Of a stretch of 60,457 nt of DNA, positions 1 through 26,797 are shown in pieces. Made by a program: the position numbers and the translations under genes. The stretch is from IMG/VR virus record IMGVR_UViG_3300046747_000764, positions 1-60,457 of that record; one strand, given 5' to 3'. Origin of the DNA: a virus. The notes under the pieces are model-generated. The model saw nothing but the letters and a program-made list of their open reading frames with translations. It ran no database searches and was not told where the DNA came from. Position 1 is the first letter of the stretch. Each line of letters begins with the position of its first letter.

Positions 1-157
1 CGCTGGTGGCAATGCCGGCACCGTCGGCAGTATAGGTCGCGGTGGATGCCTGAATCACCTGAAATGGCTGGCATTGCATAGTCGCTGCACCCGCGAGCGA
101 CGACGACAGAGCGAGGGCGAGCGCGAGCGCACACGCCCCATAGAATGGCTTCATCAT
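1..157 (-). CDS. Secreted small protein, 3' end cut off by window edge
   Basis: Reading leftward from tandem ATG codons (155-157 and 152-154), the product begins MMKPFYGACALALALAL and continues through an Ala/Leu-rich core to an AGA-type signal peptidase site. It then reads TMQCQPFQVIQAS before leaving the window after 52 codons. A purine-rich GAGGGA lies about 8 bases upstream of the start. This is a typical Sec signal peptide followed by a short Thr/Ala-rich mature region. It is the last visible gene of the leftward late operon, downstream of the giant fibre-like gene. No family is recognised; it may be another exported fibre or chaperone-like component. Confidence 0.6.
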   Translation of the reverse strand, partial: MMKPFYGACALALALALSSSLAGAATMQCQPFQVIQASTATYTADGAGIATS

Positions 158-240
158 AAAATTTCCCTCGGAAGAGTGATATGCCGCTGAGTGGGGCGCA
201 GCGGTGGCGCCGGATACTCAAACCTTAGAGCTGCGGCCCG

Positions 241-3200
241 TTAATTCGACGGAACGTGAACCAGCCCAACCGGATCGGTACAGCCCGACGGCATCCACGG
301 CAGGAAGTCGCGCCAATCATGCGGCGGGGCCCCGATGTCAGCGAGGCCGGCGCTGGCGCGGCTGGTGAAATACGAGTTGGTGCCGTCTAGGGTTACGTCA
401 TTGGTGTTGGCGCCTCGTGTTGAGATCGGGACCAACACTCCTGTCGAATCGGAGTCAACAGTTCCGCCAGCACCAGGCACTCTGGAAGCGGAGTCGAACC
501 ACACAAACTTGTTATTGCTCCACGTCTGATGGCTATCGAGCGGAATCCCAAGGCTGAAGAACCAGTGGGCGCTATTGAGCTGCTGCGCAACATACGTGCT
601 GTTGTTTACAGTCGGCGCATTCGGCTGAACGTTGGCCTCCCAATCCCCCCCATATCGCATGCTGTCCCACGAATTCATGTCGGTCCAAGATTTGGTCGAT
701 CCATCTCCGTTGACTGACAGGATCTTGTCAAAGTGGGGTGAGCCAGAATCCATGTCCACAGTCTCGCTGCCGTTATAAACGCCGTCGATATTCTGTAGGA
801 ACATAGAGCAGGTAAAATTCGCCACCTGTGAGCGCTCTTTGAACGTATGGCCAACAATGGCCTGCTCGAAGACGCTGTTGACGGCATTGGTTATCGAGTG
901 CGTTCCGCCCTCTCCCATATAGATAATGTGTTCTGGGCCGTCGCCGCCGCCACTTCTGGCGAACACGGAGTTATAAAAATTTACCGTCTGGTCGACCACA
1001 TTGGAGCTGATGAGGTTCTGTAGTGAGTCGTGGGCATAGACGTTGCGCATGGTCCATGTTCTAAAATCTCGGATGCCGATCATCCAATAGGACCACGGAC
1101 CAAGCTCTATATTGTCAACGGTAAGCGTCGGTGGGCCGGCGCTGACGAATTCGAAATCAACGCCCATAAGGTTTCCCGCGGTTTCGGTAGACCCAAACAG
1201 GTGCGCCCGAGTTTTGCCGCCGTCCGGGGAGAGCCCCTTCAGCCACAAGTGCAGTGGGTGCTGCGGGATCAGCTGGGCTTGAATTGGGGGTATCTGATAT
1301 TCACCAGCCGATATTTTGATCTGCACGTTATCCCAATTGAGGTCGCGGGCACTGTTCATGGCCGCGTACGGATCGGTAAAATCGCATCCTCCGGTGATAC
1401 ATACGGTAAGCACGTGGTCTGGGACGAACGGGTCCGCAGCCAGCGCCACAGGCAATGTCGCGACCGGGGCCGGCGGATCAATCGCTTTGGCGACATAGAA
1501 CGTGTCCGACCTCGTGGCAACATTGAAAGAATTGTGCAAATACCAAACGACCGTAAAGCCCACATCTCGATCGGCTTTTATCACAGGGGCTGTAAGGTTT
1601 ACCGTAAAGGAAGGCGTAGCCGGAAGGTACGCATAATTGGTGCTATCGTCCCCAATTACCTCCCCAGTGCCCTGTTTGACTTGCACGAAATCCGTCGTAG
1701 TAGATGAGCCGCATGTGCCAGTAACAGTGACCGTCTCGCCCGGCGCGTAAGTCGATTTGTTGAGGGCCAGGTGCGGCCCCCCACCACATCCAGAAGTGCC
1801 GCCAATGATGGTCAATTGCTGCAATTTGGGGCTGTTGGTGAAGTTCGAGTCGGTGGCCGAGACGCAGAGATCGTAATTGCGGGCAGTGGTAAGGTTGGCG
1901 CCGGCGATGGAAACGGTCGAACCCGAGAGCGTGAACGAATTATTGTCGGCGCCGGGGCAGTTCACGCCGGCGGTCTTGGTGTAAGTCCCGGCGAACGATC
2001 CGGTGCTCACCTGGGTCGAGAGAGTTCCGATTACGGTGTTGGCGTTTGGTGCCACCGCGACAAAGGTGCTCGGCGAAAGGGTGATCGAGCTGATGACACC
2101 GCCTCCACCGCCTCCCCCTCCGCCTCCGGGGACAATGACAAGAGTGGCCGGAGTTGGATCGAATGGATTGACGAAGGCTTGGGTGGAGGAGCCACCCGTC
2201 AGGCTTGTCGTCGAGGAGAACAGGCCTGTAGATAGGTTGAGCCATGACGCCTGGAGGGAAACCCCACTGGCCGACGACAGATTTACCGTTATGTTCGCGC
2301 CAATCCGATCGTACACAATGTATTGATGCCCAGCGGTATCGACGAGAGCTGTCCCCGTGCTGGACAAGTCGCCACGCGGCAGCATGGCGGTCATGTCGAC
2401 CATCTTAGCCACAGTATTGGTATGCTTAATGGCCGCGCGGTCTACTTGGTCGTAAAAAAGGAAGCTAGAGTTAAAGACGGTATAATTTCCCGCCACGCCA
2501 CTACCCTGGAGGTCGTCCATATAAAGCACGTTGTTGCCATTCATAAATGTCGACCAGAACCAATCGGTTCCGCCGCCCAAGCCAAACTGGTGATCCGTGT
2601 CGGCAAACACCGGCTTAGAGATATTAAAGACCTCTGGAACGAGGTTATAATCTTGATCCTCCATAAAGTCGGCACTGCTCGAGCCAAATTGAGACGATGG
2701 AAGATTTACACCGACTGGGTGGTGCATGTACCCCTGTGATGATTCATACGAATGAACGTAGTTGACGATCGTCTCCTGAAACGGCCACGTCTCGGGGTCC
2801 GGCTCGTTCACCACCTCATAAAGTACGCTAGGCTCCTGCGCTAGGGTGTCAAGCAGGTGACGAAGATACGCCTGCTGGAGGGTCCAGGTCGTTGAATCGG
2901 CGCCGGTGTATGCAGTGTCAACGTTGGTTGTCGTGCCGTTGATGTTATTGGCCCCGTTCCAGAAATCGAACGCCCAATCAGGATCGTGATACATCGCGAA
3001 CAACATGGGCATTACGTAGATGCCCTTGGAGGCGGCGTACTCGACGTTTGCCTTCAAATTATTAAAGAACGCCGCGTTAAACGAAGTGACGTCGATTTTA
3101 TTGCCGCCATCGCCCGCGCAGCATGTACCGGAACGATTAAATGGGATTGGCGTCACATTGCCGACGTCGGAATTAAACCGGATACCAGAGATCTCCCAAT

Positions 3201-6200
3201 GCCGGATGACGTTTGCGTTAATACTCGACAGAAAATCGGCGAAAGCATTGAAGGAAAAAGGCCCAAAGTTAGCCGTCGACGTGTAGCCACTAAGCCAGTG
3301 ATGATTTCCCGTCAGGTAGATTCCCTTGCCGTCCGGCGTCTTGAAGTAATGCGGGTTGGAGCCTAGTACGGCGAGCGGCCCCAGCGCGTTCGTCACCGTC
3401 GCGGGCGTTACCGTGAGGGGCGTGGTTGCGCTTATGGTAAAGCCGTCGTTGAGCAAATACCGGATCTCATAATCGCCTGCGGCAGGGGCCGTAAGCGAGA
3501 TGGTGGCCGGGAGCGCCACGGGCGAGCCCGGCGGGGTTTGTGAACCGTTCAGGTAGGCCCACGTGCCGATCGTGGTCGAGCCAGAGCCGGTCGGGACGAT
3601 ATTGATCCAGTCCCTCGCGTTCCCCTGTCCATTCGACAGCGTGATTGAAACCGGAGTCCCCGAGGTGACGGTTGATCCGCCATTCACCACCAACGATGGG
3701 CCACCTGTGCCGGTGACGGTAAAACCCTGGTACTGCGGGCTGTTTGTGAACGCTCCGTCGGTCGCGCTGACGCAGATCGCTTTGCTTCCCGCAGCCGTGA
3801 TGGCGGTGCCGCCGATCTTCAGGGTCGAGCCGGCAATCGTGAAGAGGCCGTTGTTGGCACCCAATCCAGAGCACCCACCTGTCGTGGACAGGGCGAATGT
3901 CCCAGCGAATGACCCAGAGGATACCGCCGCGAACAGCGTGCCGACCGTCGAGCCTTGGTTGCCGGCCGTCGCCACAAAAGTCGCCGGTGTCAACGAAAGC
4001 GTGTTGATGGTGGCGCCACCGCCACCGCCCGCGTTGACGTGCAGGTGCATCTCCCCAAGGACCGGACGCCCTCCGGGCCCACCACCCGTGGATTTGACCT
4101 GCACCATCTGCGATGCGTCGCACGGGATGGTCCCGACCGTGACCAGGTTGTTCCCGCTGATCGCGTAGTGCGTCGGGTCCGAGGCCTTATAGATCGACCA
4201 GGTGCCGGGGGTAGCGCCTTGGGTCAGCCCCATGGTGTCCACCACGGTCCCCGGCGAGGCACCGCAAGACAGCGTGGCAAATTGGTGGGTGTGCGTAACG
4301 ACGGGAGGCACGCCGGCCACCACCACCGTTGGGTCCCAATTGTATTGCGGAGTGGCCGGGTTATAGTTGCCGGGCGATCTGGTCTCAACGTCAGCTAGCG
4401 CATGCGATACGTCATATCCCAGGATGGAGAGCCCCCATATTGCTTGATGTGCATAAGGGATGTAGCCGTTATTCGCGTAACCGCCGCCGGGGCCGGGATC
4501 GTACAGGAACCGCTGCTTGGGGCCAAAGTTAAGGCCGGCCCCGCTTTGGTTCTGTACCAACACTCCACCAACTGTAAAACCGGTGAAATTCTGCCCAGCA
4601 ACCGGACATTGACTCGGAAAGGCAGCGTGATCTGCCGCTGTGCACTGCAGGAAAAACGTCTGATCCGTATTGTTTACGTTGGTAAACGTGAACCAACGAT
4701 TGCCGGGCAACTGATCGATTATCGTAGAGTTCTGACCGAATCCCGATACGTTCTTTAACGAGTCGCCGTTGGTCAGCGACGTATTGCCCGGAATGGAGTT
4801 GAGTTGGAGCTTCCCACCAGAAAGGACGTCAATATAAATATCAAAGGTGCCAAAATCCGAGGCGTCTACGCCGTTAACAAACGGGCCGTAAATGCCGCCC
4901 ATCTCAGAGCCAGTGTTTGGGTGATCGCCTTCATGAGTAAATGGTTCGCTGGCATAATCGATGGCCCAATAAGTAGACATCATGCCGTACATCTGGCCGC
5001 CGATCTCGCCCTCGTAAATCTTGGCGTCAGGCATGGTTATAGTTTCAGCCAGCGGCGAATGCTGAAACGTCGTCATGAGGTAACCAGCGGCCTCTATATG
5101 GGCCTTGATGAACGTTTCATCGAAAACAAACATATTGCCTGGCGGATTTAACGATCCGGTAAATCCTACGCTGCTCGGACCGTCGCGATAGCTTAGAAAG
5201 GACGGCCAAAAATTGGCGTTCTCAGTAAGCAGGTCGGCGAAGTATGAGCGCTCCGGATTGTTGGCTAAGGTCGGCACCAAGGGGTAATCATCGGCGCCAA
5301 AGGTGGCTCCGTAGGAGACATCACGCATCAACCACGCGCTACCACGAGCTTGGTAGACGTTCGTCAACAAGCCCCAGTAATGGTAGATGTTGCCGTCACT
5401 GTACCGTCCGTTAGCATCGCGAAAACCTCCGCCGCCAAGATCGCTAGCGGGGCCGACGGCCACTTGCATAACATCGTTGGCAGCGCGCCATTGTATTAGG
5501 TCAAGGAAGTGACGATCGCCGAACAACTGATAGGTGAATCCGGCAAACCCAGGCATGTGATCAAGCCCGGTGTAAACGAGACCGCCCGAAAGATCGTACC
5601 CACCAGGATTCAACTTGCCTGATGGATCGGCCAACCCATTCATAGGTCCGGGCGGGATGTGAGTTTGATTTCTCGTTAACAAACCGGTGTAAGAGCCGCC
5701 ATTGCCGTTCCCACCAGGGCCGGTTGGCGGGCCATTGTTGAGGGCCGGGATGCGACCTGTCGCCTCATCCAGCGTGGTCCCATAACCGTCCCGCGGCGCA
5801 CAATACGAGGCCGTCCTGGCGGCATCCCAATCCGATTCGGCCTGCGTGACAAACGCCTGAGCCGAGTATTCGTTGGAGATACCAATATCAGAGCGAGCGC
5901 CAACATCGCCCGTACCCTTCATGTTCATGTAGCCCATCGGGCCGTAAAGATTAGAGAGCCCTATGGAGTAATCCGTAAGACCGGTAGTGCCGGGCTGAGT
6001 TAGATTGAGAGGGATGATCACCCCGGTGCGCTCCCAATATTGCTTTTCAGCAAGAGTGAGCGCCGGGTAAACCTTTCGTGTTACCCGAGTGGCCGAGCCA
6101 AAGGGCGACCAGTTGGATAGCCCAGTCGCATCAACGGTTTCCCATGTTTTGAAATGGGGATGCGGTATGCGTGCCGAGAAGGTCGTTGTTCCAGAGCCCA

Positions 6201-9200
6201 GCGCGCCGCTGAGCGCCTCGCTGTCGGTCTGCGGGGCCTGTAGGAGATTGACGTACCGCGTCTCACCTAAAGTAGACGTGCCCGCGCTGCTGGCTGGATA
6301 TACATAAAGCAGCTGCCCATTGGTGAGCCCCCCAAGGCAGCCGCCCGAGCACGTCACCCGCGTCGCCTGCCCGTTGTACCACGCGTTGAGGCCGGTCGAG
6401 GATGGTATTAATAAGCAATTGCCGTAGCCTCTATAGCAGGAGGTATTCCACGGACCTGATCCGGCGGTGAGCACCGAGGCCGACGAATTGGTAATCGTCG
6501 CGTCGAGGCCGCTCCAATCGTAGACATTGGTTGCCCCGTCATCGACCTGTGCACGATACGACAAGAATTGCGGGTCGTTGGCGAAACCGGCCGGGCCGAC
6601 GTTTCCAGCGTTACCGGCGCTGCCCTGCGCGACGTTCATCCAGCTGTTGTGGATGTGGCACACCCACCGCACATCGCCCGCCGAAGTACCATCGGAGGAT
6701 TTGGTGAAGAGGTCGATGTTGCACTGCGCGTAGAGCAGCGGATCTTTGTGTCCACTCGTCGCATACGTAAATAGCCCGCTCACGACGTACTCATCCATCA
6801 CGTTGCCGGCGGCAACGTGGCGTGGAGCATCGCGCCCGGTGTTGGCGATATTGTCGCAGATGCGGAACGTCGCATCCCCGGAATCGCGCACCGTGTCATT
6901 CGTGTTACGGATGTCGGTGAGATGGATCTTCAGGTCATGCGCCGCGGGGCCGCTGCACAAAGCGGTTAGAGGCTGGTGCGAGGATTCCGCGTAGGCTCCC
7001 GCCGTAGAGATAAACTCGAACTGTGTGGTCGCCCCATTAGCCAGGGACGACGGCAACCAAGCGGCCCAGACCGCATGGCGCCACGAACCGTTGCCGCCGT
7101 TCTCGCGCCATGTCGAGATCTCGTTCCACTGCTGGCCGGCGAGGGCTGTGTGGGTCGAGGCGCTGCGGATCAGCGGGTGGGTACCTGGCATGATATCGCC
7201 ATAGGCGAACCCCTGGCCCATGGAAATGGGCGAGCCGGCGGGCAAGGTCGCCCCGGAGAGGTTCTTAAAGGTGACCGTTGTTATGGCAGAGCCGACCGCG
7301 ATCCCATTGACGGTTAGCCCTTGAGAGAAAGGACTGTTGCTGAACGTGGCGTCGGTCGCCGTTACGCAAATCGCATAGGCGCGCACGGTGGTAACGTCGG
7401 TTCCGTGCAGCTTTAGGGTCGCTCCGGTGAGTGTGAACAGACCGTTATCGGCGCCCAATCCAGAGCACCCGCCAGTCGTCGAGAAAGCGTAGGTACCAGC
7501 GAAGGAGCCCGAAGAGACGGCGGTGGACAATTGCCCCACGGTCGCGTTGGCATTGCCGGCTTGCGCAACAAAGGAGGCCGGCGACAGCGCAACCGAACTG
7601 ATCGAGAGCACCGCGCCGGCGTTGCCCGTGACGGTGAGTTGCTGCAATTTGGGGCTGTTAGAGAACCCGCCCTGAGTAGCGCTGACGCAAATGTTATAGG
7701 CGCCCGCGCCGGTTATGTCGGACGCGCCGATATGGAGTATCTCATTATGGGTGCCGGTGAGCGTGAACTTGGCATTGTCGGTGCCGGGGCAGCTGAGGCC
7801 GGTGGTCAGGGCGAAATTGCCAGTGAAGCTTCCGCTCGACACACTAGCCGTGAGAGTGCCGACCGTGGTGGTGGCATTGCCGGCTTGCGCGGTGAAGGAG
7901 GATGGATTTAGCGCGACCGAGTTGATCTGTGGAGTGCCGGTCACGATCAGCGGAGTGGTCGCGACGATAGTGTTGCTGGATGACCCCGGCGATGTGTAAT
8001 AGCGGATCTCGTAGGTTCCCGGAGCGCTCGGGCCCGTCATTGTGTTGGTGCCAGAGGTCAACTGCGGAGATGGCGGCGACGCCCCGTCAGGATTGCCGTT
8101 GAGATAAGCAAAGCAGCATTCATTGGCGCCGGCATTTGGCCAGCTCGGCGACCCTGGAACCGCAATAGTCATAAAGTCGTAAGTATTCCCGACACCGCCA
8201 GCGAAAGTCACCGGGATAGAGGCGCCCGGCGCGACCGACGAGCCCTGGAACAGAATGAGCGATGGACCATTCCCTTGGATGGTGAGGGGCTGCAGTTTGG
8301 GGCTGTTACTGAACGATGAGTCGGTGGCAGACACGCAGATGTGGTAGGCAATGCCATTGAAGGCGGCGGATGAGCCGATCTTCAGGGTCGAGCCGGTGAT
8401 CGCAAAGCTAGCGTTGTTCGTGGAATCGCATCCAGCTCCCGTAGCCAGGGCGAAGGTGCCCCCAAAGGTGCCCGAGGAAACTACGGCAGATAAGGTTCCG
8501 ACGGTCGAATTCGCATTGCCGCTCGATGAGGTAAATGACGACGGCGTCGCGGAGACCGAGGTAATCGTGGCCGCGGGACCGCCCGTGCCTGTAATGGTCA
8601 GCTGTTGAGCGAATGGACTGTTCGCGAACCCCGCGTCGGTCGCCAGCAGGCAAATCGCATAGGCGCGCGCGGTGACGACGTCGGCGGTGTTCAGCTTCAG
8701 CGTCGAGCCCGTGATCGCAAAGCTGGCGTTGTCGGCACCGTGAGTGGCGCACCCACCCGAAGTAGACAGCGCATAGGTCCCGGCGAATGTGCCCGTCGAG
8801 ACGGCGGTTGAAAGGGACCCGACCGTCGCGTTGGCGTTGCCGGCTTGGGCCGCGAAAGTAGCCGGCGTCGCGGTAACCGAAGTAATCGTGGCGGTCGGAG
8901 CGCCAGCGGTACCGGTGACAGTCAGCTGTTGCGCGAAGGGGCTGTTCGAGAAATTGACGTCGGTCGCCAGCAAGCAGATAGCGTAAGCACGAGCGACAGT
9001 AACGGCGGACCCACCGACCTTTAGTGTCGTCCCCGCAATCGCAAAGCTGGCGTTGTCGGCGCCGTGACCAGAGCACCCGCCCGAAGTCGATAGAGCATAG
9101 GTGCCAGCGAACGTGCCGCTCGAGACGACCGATGAGAGCGTCCCGACGGTAGCGTTCTGATTCCCAGCTTGGGCGATGAATGACGACGGCGACACCCCGA

Positions 9201-9750
9201 CCGAGTTTATCGTGGCGGCTGGCGGGGCTGCCGTGCCGGTCACCGAGATTGGAAAGAAAGCGGGGCTATTCCCGAAATTAGCGTCGACGGCCCGCACACA
9301 TAGCGCGTAGGTCCGGGCGACCGTAACGGCGGTAGTGTTGATCGAAAGTGTGGAGCTTGTTATCGAAAATGCGGCGTTGTCAGTCCCGGGACAATTTGTA
9401 CTAGTCGCCAGCGCATATGTACCGGCGAAGGCGCCGCTCGATACGACGGCGGTGAAAGTCCCAACCACCCGATTTGCGTTGCTAGACTCGGCTACGAACG
9501 AACTCGGCGAGACTGAGATCGAGTTAATCTGAGGACCATTGGCACCGAAGTATGTCTTGAGGTCGCCTAACGAGTGGCGGAAGCAAGGCGGCGAGCCACC
9601 GGGACATACCAGGATCGAGTCGGAATCCGAGAGCGAGGGCCCTGGGACTAGCTGGGGGACGGTTAATCCCTGTGGGTTCTGCGCAAAAGCAGGAAGCGCC
9701 AGGAACAGTAAGGCGATCAGCAATAAGCCAAGGCGTTTTGTCACTAGCAT
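241..9750 (-). CDS. Giant exported multidomain fibre/depolymerase-like protein (3,169 aa)
   Basis: The ATG at 9748-9750 is preferred over one 77 codons upstream. It lies 5 bases after the preceding stop and opens a clean Sec signal peptide (MLVTKRLGLLLIALLFLALP, cleavage after AFA). Next come six cadherin/Ig-like repeats of about 95 residues, each with a P-[AS]-[ST]-F start, a G-[TN]-[FY]-A-[LF] core, paired Cys and an L-T-[VI]-x-G end, with an Ig-like insert. A long central region of roughly 1,000 residues is unrecognised. Two further repeats flank a TIM-barrel glycosidase-like domain (YFKTPDGKGIYLTGNHHW, then VVNEPD as the likely acid/base site) followed by a Gly run. The C-terminus resembles a right-handed beta-helix of the pectate-lyase type. 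By position it should be a tail fibre or spike that degrades surface glycan, but the signal peptide is odd for a virion protein. A secreted enzyme is the alternative. Confidence 0.65.
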   Translation of the reverse strand: MLVTKRLGLLLIALLFLALPAFAQNPQGLTVPQLVPGPSLSDSDSILVCPGGSPPCFRHSLGDLKTYFGANGPQINSISVSPSSFVAESSNANRVVGTFTAVVSSGAFAGTYALATSTNCPGTDNAAFSITSSTLSINTTAVTVARTYALCVRAVDANFGNSPAFFPISVTGTAAPPAATINSVGVSPSSFIAQAGNQNATVGTLSSVVSSGTFAGTYALSTSGGCSGHGADNASFAIAGTTLKVGGSAVTVARAYAICLLATDVNFSNSPFAQQLTVTGTAGAPTATITSVTATPATFAAQAGNANATVGSLSTAVSTGTFAGTYALSTSGGCATHGADNASFAITGSTLKLNTADVVTARAYAICLLATDAGFANSPFAQQLTITGTGGPAATITSVSATPSSFTSSSGNANSTVGTLSAVVSSGTFGGTFALATGAGCDSTNNASFAITGSTLKIGSSAAFNGIAYHICVSATDSSFSNSPKLQPLTIQGNGPSLILFQGSSVAPGASIPVTFAGGVGNTYDFMTIAVPGSPSWPNAGANECCFAYLNGNPDGASPPSPQLTSGTNTMTGPSAPGTYEIRYYTSPGSSSNTIVATTPLIVTGTPQINSVALNPSSFTAQAGNATTTVGTLTASVSSGSFTGNFALTTGLSCPGTDNAKFTLTGTHNEILHIGASDITGAGAYNICVSATQGGFSNSPKLQQLTVTGNAGAVLSISSVALSPASFVAQAGNANATVGQLSTAVSSGSFAGTYAFSTTGGCSGLGADNGLFTLTGATLKLHGTDVTTVRAYAICVTATDATFSNSPFSQGLTVNGIAVGSAITTVTFKNLSGATLPAGSPISMGQGFAYGDIMPGTHPLIRSASTHTALAGQQWNEISTWRENGGNGSWRHAVWAAWLPSSLANGATTQFEFISTAGAYAESSHQPLTALCSGPAAHDLKIHLTDIRNTNDTVRDSGDATFRICDNIANTGRDAPRHVAAGNVMDEYVVSGLFTYATSGHKDPLLYAQCNIDLFTKSSDGTSAGDVRWVCHIHNSWMNVAQGSAGNAGNVGPAGFANDPQFLSYRAQVDDGATNVYDWSGLDATITNSSASVLTAGSGPWNTSCYRGYGNCLLIPSSTGLNAWYNGQATRVTCSGGCLGGLTNGQLLYVYPASSAGTSTLGETRYVNLLQAPQTDSEALSGALGSGTTTFSARIPHPHFKTWETVDATGLSNWSPFGSATRVTRKVYPALTLAEKQYWERTGVIIPLNLTQPGTTGLTDYSIGLSNLYGPMGYMNMKGTGDVGARSDIGISNEYSAQAFVTQAESDWDAARTASYCAPRDGYGTTLDEATGRIPALNNGPPTGPGGNGNGGSYTGLLTRNQTHIPPGPMNGLADPSGKLNPGGYDLSGGLVYTGLDHMPGFAGFTYQLFGDRHFLDLIQWRAANDVMQVAVGPASDLGGGGFRDANGRYSDGNIYHYWGLLTNVYQARGSAWLMRDVSYGATFGADDYPLVPTLANNPERSYFADLLTENANFWPSFLSYRDGPSSVGFTGSLNPPGNMFVFDETFIKAHIEAAGYLMTTFQHSPLAETITMPDAKIYEGEIGGQMYGMMSTYWAIDYASEPFTHEGDHPNTGSEMGGIYGPFVNGVDASDFGTFDIYIDVLSGGKLQLNSIPGNTSLTNGDSLKNVSGFGQNSTIIDQLPGNRWFTFTNVNNTDQTFFLQCTAADHAAFPSQCPVAGQNFTGFTVGGVLVQNQSGAGLNFGPKQRFLYDPGPGGGYANNGYIPYAHQAIWGLSILGYDVSHALADVETRSPGNYNPATPQYNWDPTVVVAGVPPVVTHTHQFATLSCGASPGTVVDTMGLTQGATPGTWSIYKASDPTHYAISGNNLVTVGTIPCDASQMVQVKSTGGGPGGRPVLGEMHLHVNAGGGGGATINTLSLTPATFVATAGNQGSTVGTLFAAVSSGSFAGTFALSTTGGCSGLGANNGLFTIAGSTLKIGGTAITAAGSKAICVSATDGAFTNSPQYQGFTVTGTGGPSLVVNGGSTVTSGTPVSITLSNGQGNARDWINIVPTGSGSTTIGTWAYLNGSQTPPGSPVALPATISLTAPAAGDYEIRYLLNDGFTISATTPLTVTPATVTNALGPLAVLGSNPHYFKTPDGKGIYLTGNHHWLSGYTSTANFGPFSFNAFADFLSSINANVIRHWEISGIRFNSDVGNVTPIPFNRSGTCCAGDGGNKIDVTSFNAAFFNNLKANVEYAASKGIYVMPMLFAMYHDPDWAFDFWNGANNINGTTTNVDTAYTGADSTTWTLQQAYLRHLLDTLAQEPSVLYEVVNEPDPETWPFQETIVNYVHSYESSQGYMHHPVGVNLPSSQFGSSSADFMEDQDYNLVPEVFNISKPVFADTDHQFGLGGGTDWFWSTFMNGNNVLYMDDLQGSGVAGNYTVFNSSFLFYDQVDRAAIKHTNTVAKMVDMTAMLPRGDLSSTGTALVDTAGHQYIVYDRIGANITVNLSSASGVSLQASWLNLSTGLFSSTTSLTGGSSTQAFVNPFDPTPATLVIVPGGGGGGGGGGVISSITLSPSTFVAVAPNANTVIGTLSTQVSTGSFAGTYTKTAGVNCPGADNNSFTLSGSTVSIAGANLTTARNYDLCVSATDSNFTNSPKLQQLTIIGGTSGCGGGPHLALNKSTYAPGETVTVTGTCGSSTTTDFVQVKQGTGEVIGDDSTNYAYLPATPSFTVNLTAPVIKADRDVGFTVVWYLHNSFNVATRSDTFYVAKAIDPPAPVATLPVALAADPFVPDHVLTVCITGGCDFTDPYAAMNSARDLNWDNVQIKISAGEYQIPPIQAQLIPQHPLHLWLKGLSPDGGKTRAHLFGSTETAGNLMGVDFEFVSAGPPTLTVDNIELGPWSYWMIGIRDFRTWTMRNVYAHDSLQNLISSNVVDQTVNFYNSVFARSGGGDGPEHIIYMGEGGTHSITNAVNSVFEQAIVGHTFKERSQVANFTCSMFLQNIDGVYNGSETVDMDSGSPHFDKILSVNGDGSTKSWTDMNSWDSMRYGGDWEANVQPNAPTVNNSTYVAQQLNSAHWFFSLGIPLDSHQTWSNNKFVWFDSASRVPGAGGTVDSDSTGVLVPISTRGANTNDVTLDGTNSYFTSRASAGLADIGAPPHDWRDFLPWMPSGCTDPVGLVHVPSN
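7315..9530 (-). repeat. Tandem cadherin/Ig-like domain repeats in the giant fibre gene
   Basis: The N-terminal part of the giant gene is a string of near-identical ~290-base units, each coding one beta-sandwich domain. Recognisable anchors are GNANATVG near the start, GTYALSTSGG in the middle and a QQLTVTG-like end. Six copies lie here. Two more copies of the same unit are separated from the array, at about 3,700-4,010 and 1,800-2,095. High DNA identity between units suggests recent expansion and makes the array prone to recombination. Copy number should be treated with caution if the assembly is from short reads. Confidence 0.8.
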
Positions 9751-9755
9751 TTTCC

Positions 9756-11015
9756 TTACTGAACGACCAGAGGAACGCCGGCACCGGTGACCCACCAGGC
9801 GGAGTTGCTTTTGGCGATGAATTCTGCGCAGCCGCGTCCGAGGCTGATTGCCTGCGTCGGCGCGAGCGGACCCGAGGGTGTGTTGATAATCGTCCCGTCC
9901 GCTTGGGCGTAGACCAGAACCGGCGTAGTGGTCTCGTCGCACACATAGGTGTGCCCGAACGCCACAGCGGCCGGCAGACATACCCCCGCTCCCGGGGGCA
10001 CGGTGCTCACGTAATTCTGTTGCGTTGTCAGCGCTGTGCAGTTGGCCTGCGTCGTGCCCATTGCGGAGAGTCCCGTCGAGCCCGAGTCGATTCCCAAAGG
10101 AACGTGATAAGCGCCGCCTCCGTCGATCGAGATAGACTGGCCGTCAGGCCGGCCGGCGCCGTTCGTAGTATTGGTGGCCAGCGGCAGAGCGGCAGCCGGT
10201 ACTAGCGCCTGCCATGACGGCGTACCTGGCTGGCAGGTTACGACTTGCGTGTTGGGGTCGGTCGTGCAGGCGCCGGGGAGGTTGATATGTACGGCGCTTG
10301 TCGAAGGTGCAGCCAAACGAGCGAGCGACCCATTGGCACCACGATAATAGGTGTCGCCCGACGCATCCGACCCGAGCGTGATGGTTGGCGAGGTTAGAGT
10401 GAGGCCGGAGGCGAGGGCCGGGGTGGTAATGGCACCCGGAGCGAGCTGCGACGGGCCGATCTGTTTGTATGTGTTGTCGTTACTTAGGAGCCGCGTACCG
10501 TCATAGTTGGCCGTGGTCGGTAGGCCGACGAGCGCCCGATAGCCAACGCCATCGCTGAATATCATCGCGCCTTGATTGGACCCGAACACAATGTTCGCAC
10601 GACCATTGATCAGCGCGTTATTCTGGGGGGTAACAGAATTCCCCTGTGCTACGGAAAAGTAGGTTGAACCGAACCCTGCGCCGAAACCGGCTGTGGCGGG
10701 CGTGTCGATTGTGTCGGCCTGCGCGGCGAAGTTGGTGCGGTAAACAATTTTGAATGCGTCAGTCGAAGGGAGCGCAAAGGCGCCCGCGACCGACTGCGTG
10801 TCGAGCACAGCCGACCATGCTCCGAATGCAACGGCCCATCCGGAGCATAAGCTCCGATCGTGGCCGGGACTCGGGCCCTGGTCGATGAGGAGGCAAGAGT
10901 CAGCGGGGAGCGGGGAGATCGCCGAAGGCTCGTCGCGGGTAAATTTGTTTGTCTGAGCAAACGCGGGCCAAGCCGCCATCATTGCGGCCAGGAATATGAG
11001 AAATTTAATCGGCAT
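9756..11015 (-). CDS. Exported tail-fibre-like protein (419 aa)
   Basis: The start at 11013-11015 gives a convincing Sec signal peptide (MPIKFLIFLAAMMAAWPAFA/Q). An upstream in-frame ATG would add 29 Arg/Ser-poor residues that overlap the preceding gene. The mature protein is Thr/Ser/Ala/Gly rich, with short repeated beta-type stretches (ITTPALASG, TLTSPTITLG) like the shaft segments of phage fibres, and a Cys-containing C-terminal domain ending in an aromatic GAG motif. It is followed 5 bases later by the giant fibre gene, so the two are probably co-translated parts of one adhesive apparatus. No catalytic motif is visible. Confidence 0.55.
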   Translation of the reverse strand: MPIKFLIFLAAMMAAWPAFAQTNKFTRDEPSAISPLPADSCLLIDQGPSPGHDRSLCSGWAVAFGAWSAVLDTQSVAGAFALPSTDAFKIVYRTNFAAQADTIDTPATAGFGAGFGSTYFSVAQGNSVTPQNNALINGRANIVFGSNQGAMIFSDGVGYRALVGLPTTANYDGTRLLSNDNTYKQIGPSQLAPGAITTPALASGLTLTSPTITLGSDASGDTYYRGANGSLARLAAPSTSAVHINLPGACTTDPNTQVVTCQPGTPSWQALVPAAALPLATNTTNGAGRPDGQSISIDGGGAYHVPLGIDSGSTGLSAMGTTQANCTALTTQQNYVSTVPPGAGVCLPAAVAFGHTYVCDETTTPVLVYAQADGTIINTPSGPLAPTQAISLGRGCAEFIAKSNSAWWVTGAGVPLVVQ

Positions 11016-11205
11016 GAAGCATGAGTCTCCCGCCACCATTGTCGTGGAGGAGGAGGAAGCCCCCACCGTCGTCATGCAGGATAAGGAAGCCGGCGCCGGC
11101 ACCGCGCCCGCTGACCCCGCCGCCGTGGCGCAACATGGCGAAGCCAGGGTGGAAGAGCAGTGCCGTTACGAGAATGATGAGCGCCAATAGGCCAATCGTT
11201 CGCAT
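11005..11205 (-). CDS. Small exported Gly/His-rich protein (66 aa)
   Basis: The product starts MRTIGLLALIILVTALLFHP, a hydrophobic signal or anchor segment. The rest contains repeated HDDGGG/HDNGGG units with LLL between them. A GGGAG Shine-Dalgarno-like sequence lies about 9 bases before the ATG at 11203-11205. The 3' end overlaps the start of the next fibre gene by 11 bases, consistent with translational coupling. The repeated His-Asp-Gly pattern could bind metal, but this is only inference. It is not a recognised family. Confidence 0.5.
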   Translation of the reverse strand: MRTIGLLALIILVTALLFHPGFAMLRHGGGVSGRGAGAGFLILHDDGGGFLLLHDNGGGRLMLHAD

Positions 11206-11259
11206 TCGGGGTTAACTCCCGTTGTTTGGCCAATAGAAGGATTGGAAAAATCGGCAGCT

Positions 11260-14200
11260 CTAGCTGCCGCGGTTCATGAAACGGCCGAGATTCGAGAAAA
11301 ATAGCGTAGGTTGTCTATGCAGCGATCCGCCCCCGCCCGAGGAGTGTATCGCTGATCCTGCGATAGCCGCCAAAGAGCCGGCGCCTGCAAACGAGGCGAT
11401 AACCGAGGCTTGAATAACCGCCGCCCCGTGAAGGCTTCCGGCCCCAGAAAATCCCGCCGATGCTGTCGCTATTATTGCGGCAGCCGACGAGAAGGAAGCG
11501 CTCGCGGTGAAGTGCGCTGATAAAAGGCCAGAGAGAGTGTTGGTTCCAGCAAGCTGACCGAGGCCGGCAAACCCGCCCGCGCCCGGCATGACCAAAAACG
11601 CTGGTAACGTCATGCCGCCTGAGCCAGCAAAGGCGGCTTGGGTTAGATACGCTATCGCGCCCTGGTTCCAGATTAGGGAACCAGAACCGGCAAATCCGAC
11701 CGATGCGGCAAGAGATTGGCGGTCGGCTTCGGTGAGAGAACCAAAGCCAGAGAATGATCCCAAGCCTGCGGCGGCTAGGGCCAACCGGCTGAGAGTGAGC
11801 GAGCCCGCACCGAGAAACCCGGCCTGAGAGAAGATCGTCGAAACAATCGACGATGACAGCGTCGCCTGACCGGAAAGAGCCGCCCGCGCGGCAGCCGCGA
11901 CACTTATGGGTACGGATATCGTACCCATTCCGGCAAACGCCGAACTGGCGGCGGCTGTCTGCGCCTCTGTGGTAGCGAGCGTGCCGGCGCCAGCGAACCC
12001 CGCGGCTGTATAGCGATAGGGCTGATCGAGTTCGGCAAGCGTTCCAAGACCGGCAAAGGCAGCCGGGTTTGTCGCGAACTGCTGCCCCAACACCGATGCG
12101 AGACCGCCTGAGCCACCGAATGCTGCCTTGAGCAGGTACGCGATCGCGCCCTGGTTCCAGACGAACGAGGTGGCTCCGAAGAATCCCGCGGCCGCCGAAA
12201 GATTGGCAACGTAGCTCGCCGCGAGTGAGCCAGCGCCAGCGAACGCACCGGTCGCCTGTGATCGAGCGATCGTCGAGAGCGCCAGCGCTCCCGCTCCGGA
12301 AAAGATCGATCCGATGACCGAATTCTGCGCGGCACTCGCGCTGATGGTTCCGGAACCTGCAAACCCGGCTCCGGTGACCCGATACGGGTTATCGAGTTCG
12401 GAGAGCGCACCAAGCCCCAGGAATGAGGCCAATCCTGACGCCGCGATAGATGATCCGGTGCCTAGCGTCCCAGCCCCTATAAATGCCGAAGCGGCGGCAG
12501 CGGTTAGAGCGACCGACGAACCAAGTGCTCCACCCCCAGCGAACCCAGCAAGCGCGGCGCGGTACGGCGCGAGGTTGCTGGAGAACGCACCGAGCGCGGC
12601 TAAGGTCGCGGCGGCGGCGAGCGCCTGATTTTGAACGGTCGATAGGGTGCCGGCGCCAGCAAATCCGGCTGACGTATAGCGATATGGCGCGTCGAATTCG
12701 GATAGTCCGCCGAGGCCGGAGAACGTCGAGGATGCTGCAAGCGCCGCGACAATCTCGGTCGAGAAAGATGTGCTTCCGGCAAATGAAGAGCGCGCAGGTA
12801 TCGCCGAGGCGGCGAGGACGGCAAGTGAACCAGCTCCAGAAAACCCGGCTGCCGTTTGGCGGTAAGGCGCATCAATTTCAGTAAGCGCGCCCGCCCCGGA
12901 GAAGAGCGCGGCAGCAACGGAACTCTGGGCCTCGAGGGCCCGAAATGACCCGACGCCCGCAAAAGCGGCTCGGAGCAGATAGGCAATCGCCCCTTGGTTC
13001 CAGACGAAAGAACCGACACCTGCAAACCCCGCAGCTCCTGCGAGATTAGCTAGGTGATTAGCCGAGAAAGAACCAACTCCAGCGAAGCCTGCGCCGGCAT
13101 ACGCTTGCGCGAGCGCTGTGGAATCTAGCCTGCCAGACCCCGCAAATCCGGCTGACGTATAGCGGTATGGCGAGTCGAGTTCGGCGAGAGCGCCGAGCCC
13201 GACAAACGCAGCAAGTGCGGCGGCGGCCTGGGCGGAGGAGACAGCGAGCGAGCCGCTTCCGCTGAAAGACGAGCCGGCGACCGCGTTTTGCGACGGTGAT
13301 GCGTTGAGCGACCCGGCACCAGCAAACCCGCCGGATTGCGGGATCATCGACGTGATCAGAGCGTTAAGAGAGGCGGTCCCGGCCAAGAACGCAGCAACGG
13401 CCGAATTCTGCGTTGCCGCCGAGCCGAAAGCGCCTAGGCCAGTAAAAGCGGCCGGGTTAGTGCCGAATCTCTGCGCCGTTAGAGCGTTCAGCGCGGCGCC
13501 TCCGACGAGCGTCGCATACCCGGCCGCCGCCAGGACTGATAAGGCGTTGAGCGCGCCAGCACCAGAGAATGACGCCATCGCGACGGCCGACAGCGCAGCG
13601 GAAACCGCCACGGAGCCGCTTCCGGCAAAGGATGAGCCGGCCGCTAGGTTTTGCGCCGCGGCGGACCGGAAGCCGCCGAGCGCGGTAAAGGCTGACGCGG
13701 CTGCCGCGTTCTGTGCTGAAGCCGCGCCAAGCGAGCCAGCGCCCGCGAAACCGGTCGATTGCTGGATCACCGACGTGATCAGCGCGTTGAGGACGGCGAT
13801 TCCGGCAAAGGCGGCGGCGGCGGCTGAATTCTGCGTTGCCGCCGAGCCGAAAGCACCGAGACCGGCAAAGCCAGCCGATGTGTAGCGGTAGGGCGAATCG
13901 AGCTCGGCAAGTGCCCCGACGCCAGAAAACGCCCCGAATCCAGCGGCATTGAGAAGCGCCAAAGCGTTGAGCGCGCCGGCTCCGGCAAATCCCGCGGCCG
14001 TGTATCGGTAGGGCGAATCCAGCTCGGCGAGCGCACCGAGACCGGCGAAACTAGCCAGCGCGAACCATACGGTTGCGCCGGTTATGACGGAGTCGAGATC
14101 GTTGAGTGTACCGGCGCCGGCGAACGATCCGGCGGCAGCCGCGGTTAGTCCTGACGAAGCGGCGAGCGCGGCCAAGCCAGCGAACGCCGCGGCCGTGTAC

Positions 14201-15756
14201 CGGTAGGGCGAATCGGCTTCGCCCAGCGCTCCGAGGCCCGCGAATGCTGAAAATGCTGAAAATTGCTGAGATGTAAGTGTGCTTAGAGAGCCGACCCCAG
14301 AAAAAGCGGACGCGGCGGCCGCTCTTTGAGCCAATAGCGCGCCAAGCGTGCCGGCGCCCGCGAACCCAGCGGCGGTGAAACGATAGGGCGCGTCGCTCTC
14401 GGTAAGCGCGCCGAGGCCAGAAAACGATGCAAGCGCCGCAGCGTTGAGGAGCGACGAGATGTTGAGTGAGCCGCTCCCGGCAAGCGACCCGGAGGCGGCA
14501 GCGTTCAGGGCCGCAGAGGACGCGAACGCACCCAATCCAGCGAACCCGGCGGCCGTAACGCGATAGGGCGAATCGGTCTCAGCGAAGGCGCCGACACCGG
14601 CAAGAGAAGCCCACGCAGCCAGGTTTTGATGGTCTGTTTCCGCAAATGCTCCGAGACCGCCGAACCCGGCAGCCGTGAAGCGGAAAGGCTTGTCAGTCTC
14701 CGCGAATGCCCCGGTGCCGCCGAATGAAGCGGTCTCCGGGTATGTTAGAGATGCAGTCGTCCCGAGAAGACCAGACCCGGAAAGCGAAGCGTATGCCGCG
14801 GCATTAAAAGCGGTCGGGATGCCGACGGCTCCGGTCCCAGTAAAGCCTGCCGATCCTGCCCAGGCCGTAATGGCTCCGCCATGGACGAGATAGATCAGGT
14901 CGTCTGGGTAAGGCGGAGTGCCGCCGATAGGACCGCCGCCGATGGGTCCGCCACCGATGGGGCCGCCTCGAGGGCCGGGTGCCCAAAAGGAGGCGCCGCC
15001 CGCGAAAGATGTGGATAGCTGGGCTCGCTGAGGGCGAAGGTTGCGACCGCCTAGCCCACCGACCGCAGCGAACGCCGCCGATAATTTGGTATTATACGTG
15101 ATGACGATGAGGCCGGGCTGCCCCGGCGCGACGGATGCGCCCGCGGTAGCCGTACCGTGCGCACCGCCGGCGCCTCCGTAGATCCCCCCGGTAAAGCCGT
15201 TGCCGGTAGTCGTAGCGCCGGCCCCACCCGCGCCGACGCCGTGAGTAGCGTTGAATTGTGTCCCGCTTGCCCCAGCGCCGGCACCGCCGCTTACGGTATT
15301 GTTGTCAGCATTACCGCCATTTGCCCCAGCAGAGGCGGCACCAGTCCCATGTGGTCCGGCCGAGCCCCCTCCACCCCACGCGACGCTTGAATTGCTTTTG
15401 CCGCCGGCACCACCATTAAAGTGCACGGTGTTAGAGCTGCCGGTGCCACCCGTCCCAGCTACCGTCGTCGTACCAGTAACACCGTGATGAGCGGTGATCG
15501 TAATTCCGCCGGCTACGATCGTGGTGTCGCCCGTACCGCCGGCAGTCCCCACGGTGTATGACGTGCCGTTGGTAAGGGTTAGAGCGCCGGATTCGGACGC
15601 ATACTCGCCGCCGCCCCCGCCACAGCCCGCTACAGAGGAGCTGGCTCGTAATGATCCGTCGCCGCCGGATCCGACGCACTCAACCTTATCGGCGAATCCA
15701 GGCCAGTCACCCGGGGCGCTGAATGTCCCGCTGGCCGTTAAAAAGATTTGCGTCAT
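11260..15756 (-). CDS. Very long repetitive tail-fibre-like protein (1,498 aa)
   Basis: Residues 1 to about 235 form a glycine-rich domain (GCGGGGGEYASE, later PGQPGLIVITY) of the kind found in receptor-binding adhesins of phage tails. A linker carrying a GGGPI pentapeptide repeat follows. From about residue 290 onward the protein consists almost entirely of degenerate ~30-residue units with the motif F-[AS]-G-x-G-[AST]-[LF], many containing SPYRYTAAGFAG. The C-terminus is short and basic. The composition (Ala, Gly, Phe, Ser) and absence of enzymatic motifs suggest an extended fibrous shaft. Unlike its neighbours it has no signal peptide: the N-terminus MTQIFLTASGTFSAPGDW is the Gly-rich domain itself. 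Confidence 0.6.
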   Translation of the reverse strand: MTQIFLTASGTFSAPGDWPGFADKVECVGSGGDGSLRASSSVAGCGGGGGEYASESGALTLTNGTSYTVGTAGGTGDTTIVAGGITITAHHGVTGTTTVAGTGGTGSSNTVHFNGGAGGKSNSSVAWGGGGSAGPHGTGAASAGANGGNADNNTVSGGAGAGASGTQFNATHGVGAGGAGATTTGNGFTGGIYGGAGGAHGTATAGASVAPGQPGLIVITYNTKLSAAFAAVGGLGGRNLRPQRAQLSTSFAGGASFWAPGPRGGPIGGGPIGGGPIGGTPPYPDDLIYLVHGGAITAWAGSAGFTGTGAVGIPTAFNAAAYASLSGSGLLGTTASLTYPETASFGGTGAFAETDKPFRFTAAGFGGLGAFAETDHQNLAAWASLAGVGAFAETDSPYRVTAAGFAGLGAFASSAALNAAASGSLAGSGSLNISSLLNAAALASFSGLGALTESDAPYRFTAAGFAGAGTLGALLAQRAAAASAFSGVGSLSTLTSQQFSAFSAFAGLGALGEADSPYRYTAAAFAGLAALAASSGLTAAAAGSFAGAGTLNDLDSVITGATVWFALASFAGLGALAELDSPYRYTAAGFAGAGALNALALLNAAGFGAFSGVGALAELDSPYRYTSAGFAGLGAFGSAATQNSAAAAAFAGIAVLNALITSVIQQSTGFAGAGSLGAASAQNAAAASAFTALGGFRSAAAQNLAAGSSFAGSGSVAVSAALSAVAMASFSGAGALNALSVLAAAGYATLVGGAALNALTAQRFGTNPAAFTGLGAFGSAATQNSAVAAFLAGTASLNALITSMIPQSGGFAGAGSLNASPSQNAVAGSSFSGSGSLAVSSAQAAAALAAFVGLGALAELDSPYRYTSAGFAGSGRLDSTALAQAYAGAGFAGVGSFSANHLANLAGAAGFAGVGSFVWNQGAIAYLLRAAFAGVGSFRALEAQSSVAAALFSGAGALTEIDAPYRQTAAGFSGAGSLAVLAASAIPARSSFAGSTSFSTEIVAALAASSTFSGLGGLSEFDAPYRYTSAGFAGAGTLSTVQNQALAAAATLAALGAFSSNLAPYRAALAGFAGGGALGSSVALTAAAASAFIGAGTLGTGSSIAASGLASFLGLGALSELDNPYRVTGAGFAGSGTISASAAQNSVIGSIFSGAGALALSTIARSQATGAFAGAGSLAASYVANLSAAAGFFGATSFVWNQGAIAYLLKAAFGGSGGLASVLGQQFATNPAAFAGLGTLAELDQPYRYTAAGFAGAGTLATTEAQTAAASSAFAGMGTISVPISVAAAARAALSGQATLSSSIVSTIFSQAGFLGAGSLTLSRLALAAAGLGSFSGFGSLTEADRQSLAASVGFAGSGSLIWNQGAIAYLTQAAFAGSGGMTLPAFLVMPGAGGFAGLGQLAGTNTLSGLLSAHFTASASFSSAAAIIATASAGFSGAGSLHGAAVIQASVIASFAGAGSLAAIAGSAIHSSGGGGSLHRQPTLFFSNLGRFMNRGS
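11350..14880 (-). repeat. Long degenerate ~90-base tandem repeat array
   Basis: About 3.5 kb of DNA is built from units coding [AS]-x-F-[AS]-G-x-G-[AS]-[LF] followed by variable Ala/Ser-rich spacers. Some longer blocks, such as the one coding AELDSPYRYTSAGFAG, recur nearly unchanged many times. Dozens of copies are present. Because the units stay in frame and vary mainly at wobble positions, this is a protein-level repeat and not a CRISPR or satellite array. Confidence 0.8.
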
Positions 15757-15767
15757 TCATCGGGCGG

Positions 15768-16427
15768 CTAGTTTAGCACCCAGGCCGCAGCCGATGGGCT
15801 TGGCGTGATGAGGATGGCGACGACGGTTGTGTTGATCCCGGCTGTTGTGGTCTTGGCTGCCGGCGCGACCGATCCGCCTGAGGCGGCTTGGATCGTGTAC
15901 GTGGTGGCGGTGGTTTCCACCAGCCCGACGATACATTTGCCGAGCGTCGGCATATTGATGTTAGGCAGAGTTACGGTCGGTGTCGTGCCGGTCGGCAGCA
16001 GCAGGATCTTACCGCAGTCAGCTTGAACGACGTTGTAATTGTTGGATGTCAACGTCACCGCCTCGACGTCACCGTGATCTTCGGCGAGATGGGCAACCCA
16101 CACGACGGCGGCAGAGGTGGCGCTGATCGCCGAATTGCTGTTGCTCGAATAGATAGAGCCGCGGGTGAGGGTCGTGCCTGACGCGGTATAGGTCCCGCGG
16201 CCGACCTCCCAATTCGCGCCATCGCGGATCGAGTAGGAGATGAGTTCGCCGTCGATAACGCCGGAAGCCGCGAAGGTCAGATATCCTGACACAGCCGAGC
16301 CAAGGGTGATCGTGCCGGTCCCGGGCGTCCCAGTAACGGTCATCTCCGCCATGTCGTGTAGAAAGGCGAGGGACGGGTTGCACCAGGAGCACAGGAACGG
16401 CAGAGCGAGGAGGAGGCGTCGGATCAT
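15768..16427 (-). CDS. Phage tail-type beta protein with an added signal peptide (219 aa)
   Basis: After an N-terminal hydrophobic segment (MIRRLLLALPFLCSW) the protein contains a stretch typical of small phage tail/neck proteins. In order this reads GTITLGSAVSGYLTFAASG, DGELISYSIRDG, WEVGRGTYTASG and TLTRG. A C-terminal beta domain follows. The ATG at 16427 has a GGGAGGCG ribosome site and overlaps the preceding methyltransferase stop by 4 bases. In ordinary phages this domain has no signal peptide, so its export here is unusual. It is probably a virion or adhesin component. Confidence 0.6.
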   Translation of the reverse strand: MIRRLLLALPFLCSWCNPSLAFLHDMAEMTVTGTPGTGTITLGSAVSGYLTFAASGVIDGELISYSIRDGANWEVGRGTYTASGTTLTRGSIYSSNSNSAISATSAAVVWVAHLAEDHGDVEAVTLTSNNYNVVQADCGKILLLPTGTTPTVTLPNINMPTLGKCIVGLVETTATTYTIQAASGGSVAPAAKTTTAGINTTVVAILITPSPSAAAWVLN

Positions 16428-17056
16428 GGCGGCGCCTCCCACACCCCCCAGTATGACGGGGGACCCGGAATGATGGACTCGTCTACGCCTTCGATGCGTA
16501 CCGGGATTAGCGCTTCCGTGAGCAGATCAAGCACATCGGCCCCGTCATGCATCCAGGCTTGCCGTGTCGGCACAAAGCGCTGCCGGGCGTTAAGGACAAA
16601 GAGCCGGCCGCCGGGCTTCAGAGCCGCCGCAATGCGAGCGATGTCGTCCTTGACGTGAGCCATGTGCTGTAGCGCCCACACCGACAGCGCGAAGTCGAAC
16701 CTTGCACCGAACCTGCACATCCGCTCGAACGCGATGGGAGCACAGCAGAGAAACCGGTCGGAATCGACGTATTCGACCGCTAAGCGCCGCATCGACGGGC
16801 TGATGTCGACACCAAGCACGGTCCAGTTGCGGCGAGCGATCAGAGGCCGGGCGAGCCGGCCGATGCCGCATCCGTAGTCGAGGCAGCTCGAGTTGACGAT
16901 CGGCATATATCCGATGATCTTCTCGAGCAGGTACTCGGTCTCGACGGACCAGCGCTCTTCGGGGGTTCGCTTGCCGTCTGGGGTTAGGATTATGGACTTT
17001 GCTTGAGCGAGCGAGGTGACGTTAAAGATTGCGGGATCGTAAGCTAGTTCTTGCAT
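16424..17056 (-). CDS. Class I SAM-dependent methyltransferase (210 aa)
   Basis: The SAM-binding motif I is LDYGCGIGRLARPL near residue 60, followed by VLGVDISPSM (acidic ribose-binding loop), FDFALSVWALQHM and LKPGGRLFVLNA, the standard order for a Methyltransf_11-type fold. The start overlaps the upstream glycosyltransferase stop by 13 bases, and its stop overlaps the next gene. Its position among sugar genes suggests it methylates a glycan or sugar-modified virion protein, though a small-molecule substrate is possible. Confidence 0.75.
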   Translation of the reverse strand: MQELAYDPAIFNVTSLAQAKSIILTPDGKRTPEERWSVETEYLLEKIIGYMPIVNSSCLDYGCGIGRLARPLIARRNWTVLGVDISPSMRRLAVEYVDSDRFLCCAPIAFERMCRFGARFDFALSVWALQHMAHVKDDIARIAAALKPGGRLFVLNARQRFVPTRQAWMHDGADVLDLLTEALIPVRIEGVDESIIPGPPSYWGVWEAPP

Positions 17057-17730: not shown

Positions 17731-18046
17731 TGAACTGCCCCATTTTTAGATTGGGATTTTCCATCAGCAACCGTTCGATCGCGATGCATACCGCGGCGAG
17801 GTCGGTACGGTCGATCACCATGCGCAACGTAGGCTCAAGGTGATCATCTTCGTAAAAGAACAACTGAACATCGCCGCCGCGGATGCCGTTGCCGATGACG
17901 CAGCCGAACCATCCCTTGACACGGGTCTCGGGGAGCTGGAGCGCGTCGTGATACCATTGGCCCGGATTCGCCGGACCAGTAGGAGCCGGAGGCAATGCGC
18001 AACGCACATCGCCGTGCCCGGTGATTTTTCCGAAGCCGCCTTGCAT
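17723..18046 (-). CDS. Hypothetical protein (107 aa)
   Basis: The product contains QWYHDALQLPETRVKGWFG, GDVQLFFYEDD and a helical C-terminus (DLAAVCIAIERLLMENP). It is translationally coupled to the preceding gene through an ATGA overlap and ends inside the 5' region of the glycosyltransferase. No family is recognised. The GWFGCVIGN and FFYEDD segments look like a compact alpha/beta domain. It may cooperate with the glycosyltransferase, with which it may share a frameshift junction. Confidence 0.5.
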   Translation of the reverse strand: MQGGFGKITGHGDVRCALPPAPTGPANPGQWYHDALQLPETRVKGWFGCVIGNGIRGGDVQLFFYEDDHLEPTLRMVIDRTDLAAVCIAIERLLMENPNLKMGQFNS

Positions 18047-18228: not shown

Positions 18229-18234
18229 CTCCGG

Positions 18235-18642
18235 TCAGTTGATCTGCGAGGTAAGCGCTCCCGCCGCAATGACGAGAGTGTCGCCTGTTATAACGACGCG
18301 GGGCGTCGCGAGCAAGCCAAACCATAGCTCGTTCCCAAGCGTCGCGGTCTGGAACAGGTCGTACTGGAGAATGCCGCTCAGCGTGCGAACCGAGGAGAAC
18401 GCACCAAACGTCATTGCATTCAGATTAGTGGCTGACGCGGGTGTACCCGCTGCGTTGGCCCATGTGCAGGTCTGGCGCGAATAGCCCTCAGCGGTGCCAA
18501 GCTCACCCTGCGATCCGCCGAGTGATGTCGGAGATCCGGTGCACAGAGCAAGGAAAGGATGCGCGACAGGTAGGTTTGTCGTGCTGCCCTGGTTTATGTA
18601 ATTCAAAAGGCCAACTTGCCCATATTGACTGACGTTCGCCAT
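18235..18642 (-). CDS. Phage virion-type protein (135 aa)
   Basis: The sequence MANVSQYGQVGLLNYINQG, then HPFLALCTGSPT, YSRQTCTWANAAG and NAMTFGAF resembles small Ser/Thr/Gly-rich structural proteins found near fibre genes in many phages. It is all beta by composition, with no signal peptide. It sits directly downstream of the HNH gene in the late operon. It is probably a minor virion or fibre-associated protein, but the family is recognised only by general pattern. Confidence 0.5.
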   Translation of the reverse strand: MANVSQYGQVGLLNYINQGSTTNLPVAHPFLALCTGSPTSLGGSQGELGTAEGYSRQTCTWANAAGTPASATNLNAMTFGAFSSVRTLSGILQYDLFQTATLGNELWFGLLATPRVVITGDTLVIAAGALTSQIN

Positions 18643-18644
18643 CG

Positions 18645-19307: not shown

Positions 19308-19313
19308 CCTTCC

Positions 19314-26682: not shown

Positions 26683-26797
26683 ATGACCACAGCACGGCTC
26701 AGGCTAGCTACCGAAAACCGGGTTCTCGCTCCCCGGCTGCCGTGCTGCTCCTCGAGCGAGTTGCGCGCCGCGAGCGGGGGCGCAAGGCCAACCATCG

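Follow-up and report, generated by a model that had tools for sequence, protein, structure and literature searches.

Five fiber-like proteins encoded together on the minus strand of a soil phage record carry Sec signal peptides, and comparison with their relatives makes export and extracytoplasmic folding very probable. The window analyzed here, meaning the whole stretch of DNA, is a single IMG/VR virus record of 60,457 bp, in which a late-type gene run on the minus strand starts from the portal gene and leads into the cassette of signal-bearing genes, with sugar-modifying genes and the gene for a head protein in between (Table 1). The explanation that we favor, with reasonable but far from full confidence, is that the cassette encodes fiber- or spike-type proteins turned into Sec-exported ones, which would be made late, disulfide bonded in the periplasm, let out at lysis, and active on glycans.

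In many phages from soil, and in prophages of alphaproteobacteria, fiber-type genes have export signals with matched cysteines, which contradicts the rule that fiber assembly is cytoplasmic. One possibility is that phages possess a route for maturing fibers outside the cytoplasm; the other is that a large group of genes labeled "tail fiber", or counted among virus-borne carbohydrate enzymes, in reality encodes secreted proteins. Both options bear on host-range prediction, on the annotation of receptor-binding proteins, and on claims about virus-borne enzymes in soil.

Table 1. Features of the window and of one cultured phage discussed in the text (SP+, signal peptide present; SP-less, signal peptide absent).
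Feature	Position	Strand	Details
SP+ protein cut by contig end	1..157	-	Signal MMKPFYGACALALALALSSSLAGA followed by ATM; GAGG 8 nt upstream; 52 residues visible
SP+ 3169-aa protein	241..9750	-	Signal MLVTKRLGLLLIALLFLALPAFA followed by QNP; eight cadherin-like repeats
Hydrolase-like stretch, ~residues 2202-2529 of 9750 product	2164..3147	-	Weak GH5/DUF6298/Collagen_bind_2-like; every match below curated cutoffs
Six of the eight cadherin-like two-Cys repeats of 9750 product	7279..9528	-	Other two at 3685-4008 and 1771-2094
SP+ 419-aa protein	9756..11015	-	Signal MPIKFLIFLAAMMAAWPAFA followed by QTN; fiber-type N-terminal motif ADSCLLIDQGPSPGHDRSLCSGW; Cys 41/57; 8 Cys in total
SP+ 66-aa protein	11005..11205	-	Signal MRTIGLLALIILVTALLFHPGFA; LHDDGGGFLLLHDNGGG repeats
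Terminator-like hairpin	11252..11269	-	Between SP-less 1498-aa gene and 11205 gene
SP-less fiber-like protein, 1498 aa	11260..15756	-	AFAGAGSL repeats
SP+ fiber-type protein, 219 aa	15768..16427	-	Signal 1-21; tail-fiber N-domain ~25-111; second beta domain with C138/C165
Signal peptide of 16427 product	16365..16427	-	MIRRLLLALPFLCSWCNPSLA followed by FLHD
Head protein	18235..18642	-	Match to phrog_240
Portal protein	23655..25253	-	Part of the late gene run shared with cassette
VirB-type T4SS (VirB4, 5, 6, 8, 9, 10, 11, VirD4) and TrwC relaxase	25866-45037	+	Between terminase and portal
BcepC6B gp19	L376 20959-22032		Annotated tail fiber protein, Sec-like signal

Signal peptides and fiber-type domains of the cassette

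A preliminary description of this DNA had proposed that the products starting at positions 16427, 11205, 11015, 9750, and 157 open with signal peptides. All five, each with a minus-strand start, were confirmed as bearing signals of the Sec/SPI type, with n-, h-, and c-regions, a small residue at -1 and -3, and nearby Shine-Dalgarno sites. The rule used to call signals recognizes 12 of 12 Escherichia coli Sec signals and is triggered by 1.5% of 925 antisense shadow open reading frames, a background that rules out chance hydrophobic N termini. It was positive for five of the six cassette genes, compared with none of the 29 other curated phage genes in the window (Fisher P = 1.8e-5). The remaining cassette gene, encoding a 1498-aa protein that had gone unmentioned in the preliminary description, serves as an internal control.

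Starts lying downstream of the hydrophobic segments, which the preliminary description had named as refuting evidence, were found for none of the five genes. Misplaced starts are ruled out by the Shine-Dalgarno sites, an ATGA overlap, and the starts of homologs. The start at 16427 is preceded, at a distance of 7 nt, by GGGAGG, and its gene overlaps the preceding one in an ATGA; the start at 9750 has AAGGA just upstream, and an alternative GTG two codons in also retains the signal.

Homology to fiber domains is clear for the 16427 product, relatives of which are encoded in 33 IMG/VR loci. Its residues 44 to 89 match proteins annotated as tail fibers in cultured phages, which confirms the phage tail-type domain previously assigned to it. 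In 15 homologs the whole sequence begins where the signal of the 16427 product ends, and none of the 15 has a signal; on this sequence comparison, the 16427 product is a fiber N-domain with a predicted signal added ahead of the usual start. The mature protein has two cysteines, both in its second domain; the SP-less two-domain homolog encoded in locus L004 lacks them. An AlphaFold2 (AF2) model was good for approximately residues 25 to 111 only, and a fold search with it returned nothing significant.

For the 11015 and 9750 products the homology is weaker and at the level of motifs. Soon after the cleavage site, each has a stretch resembling the fiber N-terminal motif GTELFEAVQTGASVKLTASQI with two cysteines inserted, a likeness recognized by eye and with no significant search match; in isolates, proteins with this motif are annotated as tail fiber, minor tail, or structural. 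Each of the eight repeats of the 9750 product has exactly two conserved cysteines and is predicted to be cadherin-like (pLDDT, 92), the best PDB matches being cadherins (best E value, 6.6e-3). This protein contains 41 cysteines, compared with 2 in its SP-less 1498-aa neighbor. The earlier view of the cassette proteins as fiber-like is thereby supported at the level of sequence, and some of them also look glycan active. Searches of Pfam, PHROGs, and NCBIfam returned little for the cassette. No relatives of the 11015 product were found in viral contigs, no convincing relative of the 9750 N terminus was found in cultured phages, and the fetched loci contained no small relatives with LLLHDD repeats.

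Relatives of the 157 product in loci L184 and L241 are also SP+. The record is a fragment: this family sits between portal and prohead-protease-like genes in those two loci, and capsid and tail genes therefore probably lie beyond the left end of the record.

Coupling of signals and cysteine pairs

Paired cysteines, taken as a signature of an oxidizing compartment, were found in the cassette proteins and in their relatives. To assess signals and cysteines independently of the N terminus, viral contigs were probed, without bias toward signals, with a single C-terminal fiber domain; relatives of this probe in isolates are annotated as tail fiber, tailspike, or virion structural proteins. Among 69 loci with a visible N terminus, 24 had a signal and a cysteine partner, none had a signal without the partner, 5 had a partner without a called signal, and 40 had neither (P = 5e-14). 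Many of the coupled proteins are homologous, and the effective sample is therefore smaller; the test by homology cluster (6/0 versus 2/27, P = 1.7e-5) is the conservative figure. Three of the five loci with a partner and no called signal (L285, L303, and L305) are members of the spike family, with a signal start that the rule missed, and the other two (L312 and L337) are undecided or fragments. The sole candidate counterexample among the 69 is L306, counted as SP-less without a partner, which has a weak signal-like N terminus.

An independent sample of bacterial genomes gave 8 proteins with signal and pair and 4 with neither; 2 of the 8 came from one Rhizobium genome, and the signal of one (L370) was called by eye. 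Among genes called in related viral loci, cysteine counts were even in 53 of 56 signal proteins versus 200 of 470 others, and cysteine density was 1.79 versus 0.82 per 100 aa. The coupling, the density, and the even counts are hard to explain unless the signal proteins reach an oxidizing compartment. An effect of lineage on the cysteines is unlikely, since SP-less fibers lacking the pair and signal-bearing fibers possessing it occur within one bacterial order.

By portal alignment, 117 relatives were identified from bacterial genomes, chiefly isolates and metagenome-assembled genomes of alphaproteobacteria, and 569 from viral contigs. A large subset encodes a pectate-lyase-like spike between terminase and portal (e.g., L219 4561-7128, 855 aa), with a hydrophobic signal-like segment ahead of the mature start wherever the N terminus is visible. 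In many portal relatives, the slot that holds the type IV secretion system (T4SS) in the window is occupied by a signal-peptide spike instead, with no T4SS. Copies adjacent to ClpB in G001 and G002 and a host-flanked copy in G004 show that these elements are integrated. The tail gene order of G001, G002 (L264-L267), and G004 C283 (L270-L271), comprising a tape measure, two short tail genes, an NlpC/P60-like gene, and a large tip protein, resembles that of the alphaproteobacterial gene transfer agent; two of these elements lie beside clpB, and all encode the SP+ spike in the interval from terminase to portal.

In a group of BPP-1-like contigs, whose capsid matches BPP-1, phiV10, and BcepC6B, two further small families, A4 and A1, are encoded after the capsid gene and the gene that follows it. 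Signals were recognized by eye in 40 of 44 A4 loci. Every A4 protein has either both motif cysteines or neither; the SP-less ones lack the pair and are encoded in the slot after the capsid that signal-bearing ones also take. The A1 proteins (L002, L035-L060, and others) constitute a phage family of ~140 aa that is absent from Pfam. Nearly all members have a signal-like N terminus and four conserved cysteines, and in two members cysteines 1 and 2 are missing together and 3 and 4 retained. A signal-peptide fiber takes the usual fiber position, after baseplate or tip genes, in a prophage of Rhizobium sp. AC27/96, where it has 488 aa, as well as in L280 and L286. Two tandem signal-peptide fiber-like genes (L278 3319-6132 and 6367-8496) were present on a prophage-like contig of an isolate genome. 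Counting against the export explanation, the structural genes of the related cultured Brevundimonas phage Polewnik bear no signal.

Comparison with known phage proteins

The cassette proteins resemble the tail fibers and tailspikes of Caudoviricetes in their N- and C-terminal domains, beta-rich repeats, and place in runs of structural genes. They differ in having a Sec signal in place of, or ahead of, the usual start, in having cysteine pairs at sites where SP-less relatives have none, and in departing from cytoplasmic synthesis without an export signal. Two cultured phages have fiber-type genes with a Sec-like signal and cysteine pairs, namely, Burkholderia phage BcepC6B (gp19, "tail fiber protein") and Xanthomonas phage PBR31 (orf35, "putative structural protein"); however, both are unrelated in sequence to the cassette, and each adjoins an SP-less fiber or spike. 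The paper describing PBR31 makes no mention of a signal on orf35 (PMC10975493).

Lom of phage lambda is likewise a signal-peptide protein encoded amid tail genes (PMC12309495), but it is an outer membrane beta-barrel, and family searches with the cassette proteins matched no outer membrane barrel family. The 9750, 11015, and 16427 products also gave no YadA-type match at an E value of 0.1 to the C-terminal anchor of trimeric autotransporters. Phage SAR endolysins and spanins are late proteins that use the host Sec system (e.g., in JG068, PMC3765740), whereas the cassette has no lysis domain and contains fiber- and glycan-type domains instead. Tail fibers, Sec export of phage lysis proteins, and lambda Lom are thus all known as separate elements. 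In the literature searched, mostly open-access journal papers, we found no report of virion-module fiber-type proteins that systematically carry Sec signals with matched cysteines; an earlier description elsewhere is possible.

Proposed export and fate of the proteins, and alternative explanations

Under the export explanation, the cassette would be translated alongside the late genes, as its co-direction with the structural genes suggests, and its products would be exported by Sec and cleaved by signal peptidase I. Folding would then take place in the oxidizing periplasm, where the paired cysteines could form disulfides, and lysis would place the proteins outside the cell to bind or cut glycans, presumably those of surfaces or matrix. 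Action outside the cell had been put forward in the preliminary description, and the cysteine evidence argues for extracytoplasmic action. The conflict that it saw between Sec export and cytoplasmic tail assembly also persists: phage tails are not known to be built outside the cytoplasm, and no signal-bearing protein of this kind is known in virions, which counts against the explanation.

Whether the proteins act as free released molecules or as fibers that dock on virions after lysis is split about evenly. Free release is favored because the spikes have no recognizable docking part and because cultured phages encode the signal-peptide gene beside an SP-less fiber or spike (BcepC6B gp18/gp19 and PBR31 orf34/orf35). 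Docking is favored because the N-terminal motif is retained and because, in some phages, no other fiber is visible beside the signal gene. A periplasmic maturation route is a tentative proposal that we regard as doubtful: tail or head fibers would be exported by Sec, disulfide bonded, and stocked in the periplasm, joining virions only while these exit at lysis and docking via the fiber N-terminal motif just behind the cleavage site. Such a route would explain why A4 proteins with or without a signal occupy one slot after the capsid.

A serious rival, albeit a less likely one, is lysogenic conversion, in which prophage proteins would be secreted or displayed by the lysogen as adhesins or polysaccharide-degrading enzymes, independently of particle production; display by the lysogen had been among the suggestions of the preliminary description. 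Signals and cysteine pairs suit envelope proteins, as do hydrolase-like and cadherin-like domains this role; several relatives are integrated prophages flanked by host genes, and lambda Lom provides a precedent (PMC12309495). The terminator-like hairpin upstream of four cassette genes could split them from the late run and so also counts against export with the late genes, such sites being present in the region at near chance number. However, a search of the minus strand of the cassette for a promoter-like site found none, and the genes are co-directed amid structural genes, with those for terminase, portal, and capsid on either side of them in relatives. The fiber-type ends are also kept, and no A1 relative was found in the bacterial genome collection.

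It is very unlikely that the hydrophobic N termini are nonfunctional as signals and that the proteins are ordinary cytoplasmic virion fibers. Fiber homology and a gene position typical of virion proteins would fit this reading, but it must contend with the signal-cysteine coupling in independent samples, the both-or-neither pairs within families, and SP-less homologs that need no such N terminus. Least probable is the earlier suggestion that the cassette acts with a T4SS pilus in mating, since, although the record does encode a T4SS and a TrwC-type relaxase, these form a separate block on the opposite strand between terminase and portal, signal-bearing fibers occur in relatives with no adjoining T4SS, the cassette has no pilus-related domain, and nothing ties it to mating.

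The sugar-modifying genes amid the structural genes (window 16424-22526, minus strand) comprise a sugar epimerase, methyltransferases, and a weak glycosyltransferase match. Elsewhere in the window, a small protein encoded on the plus strand (49975-50262) has a lipobox-like N terminus (MMRTQAANIIVLLGLAGC followed by TAP) and is possibly a lipoprotein, and an orotidine 5'-phosphate decarboxylase-like gene lies amid early-type genes on the minus strand (55243-55887).
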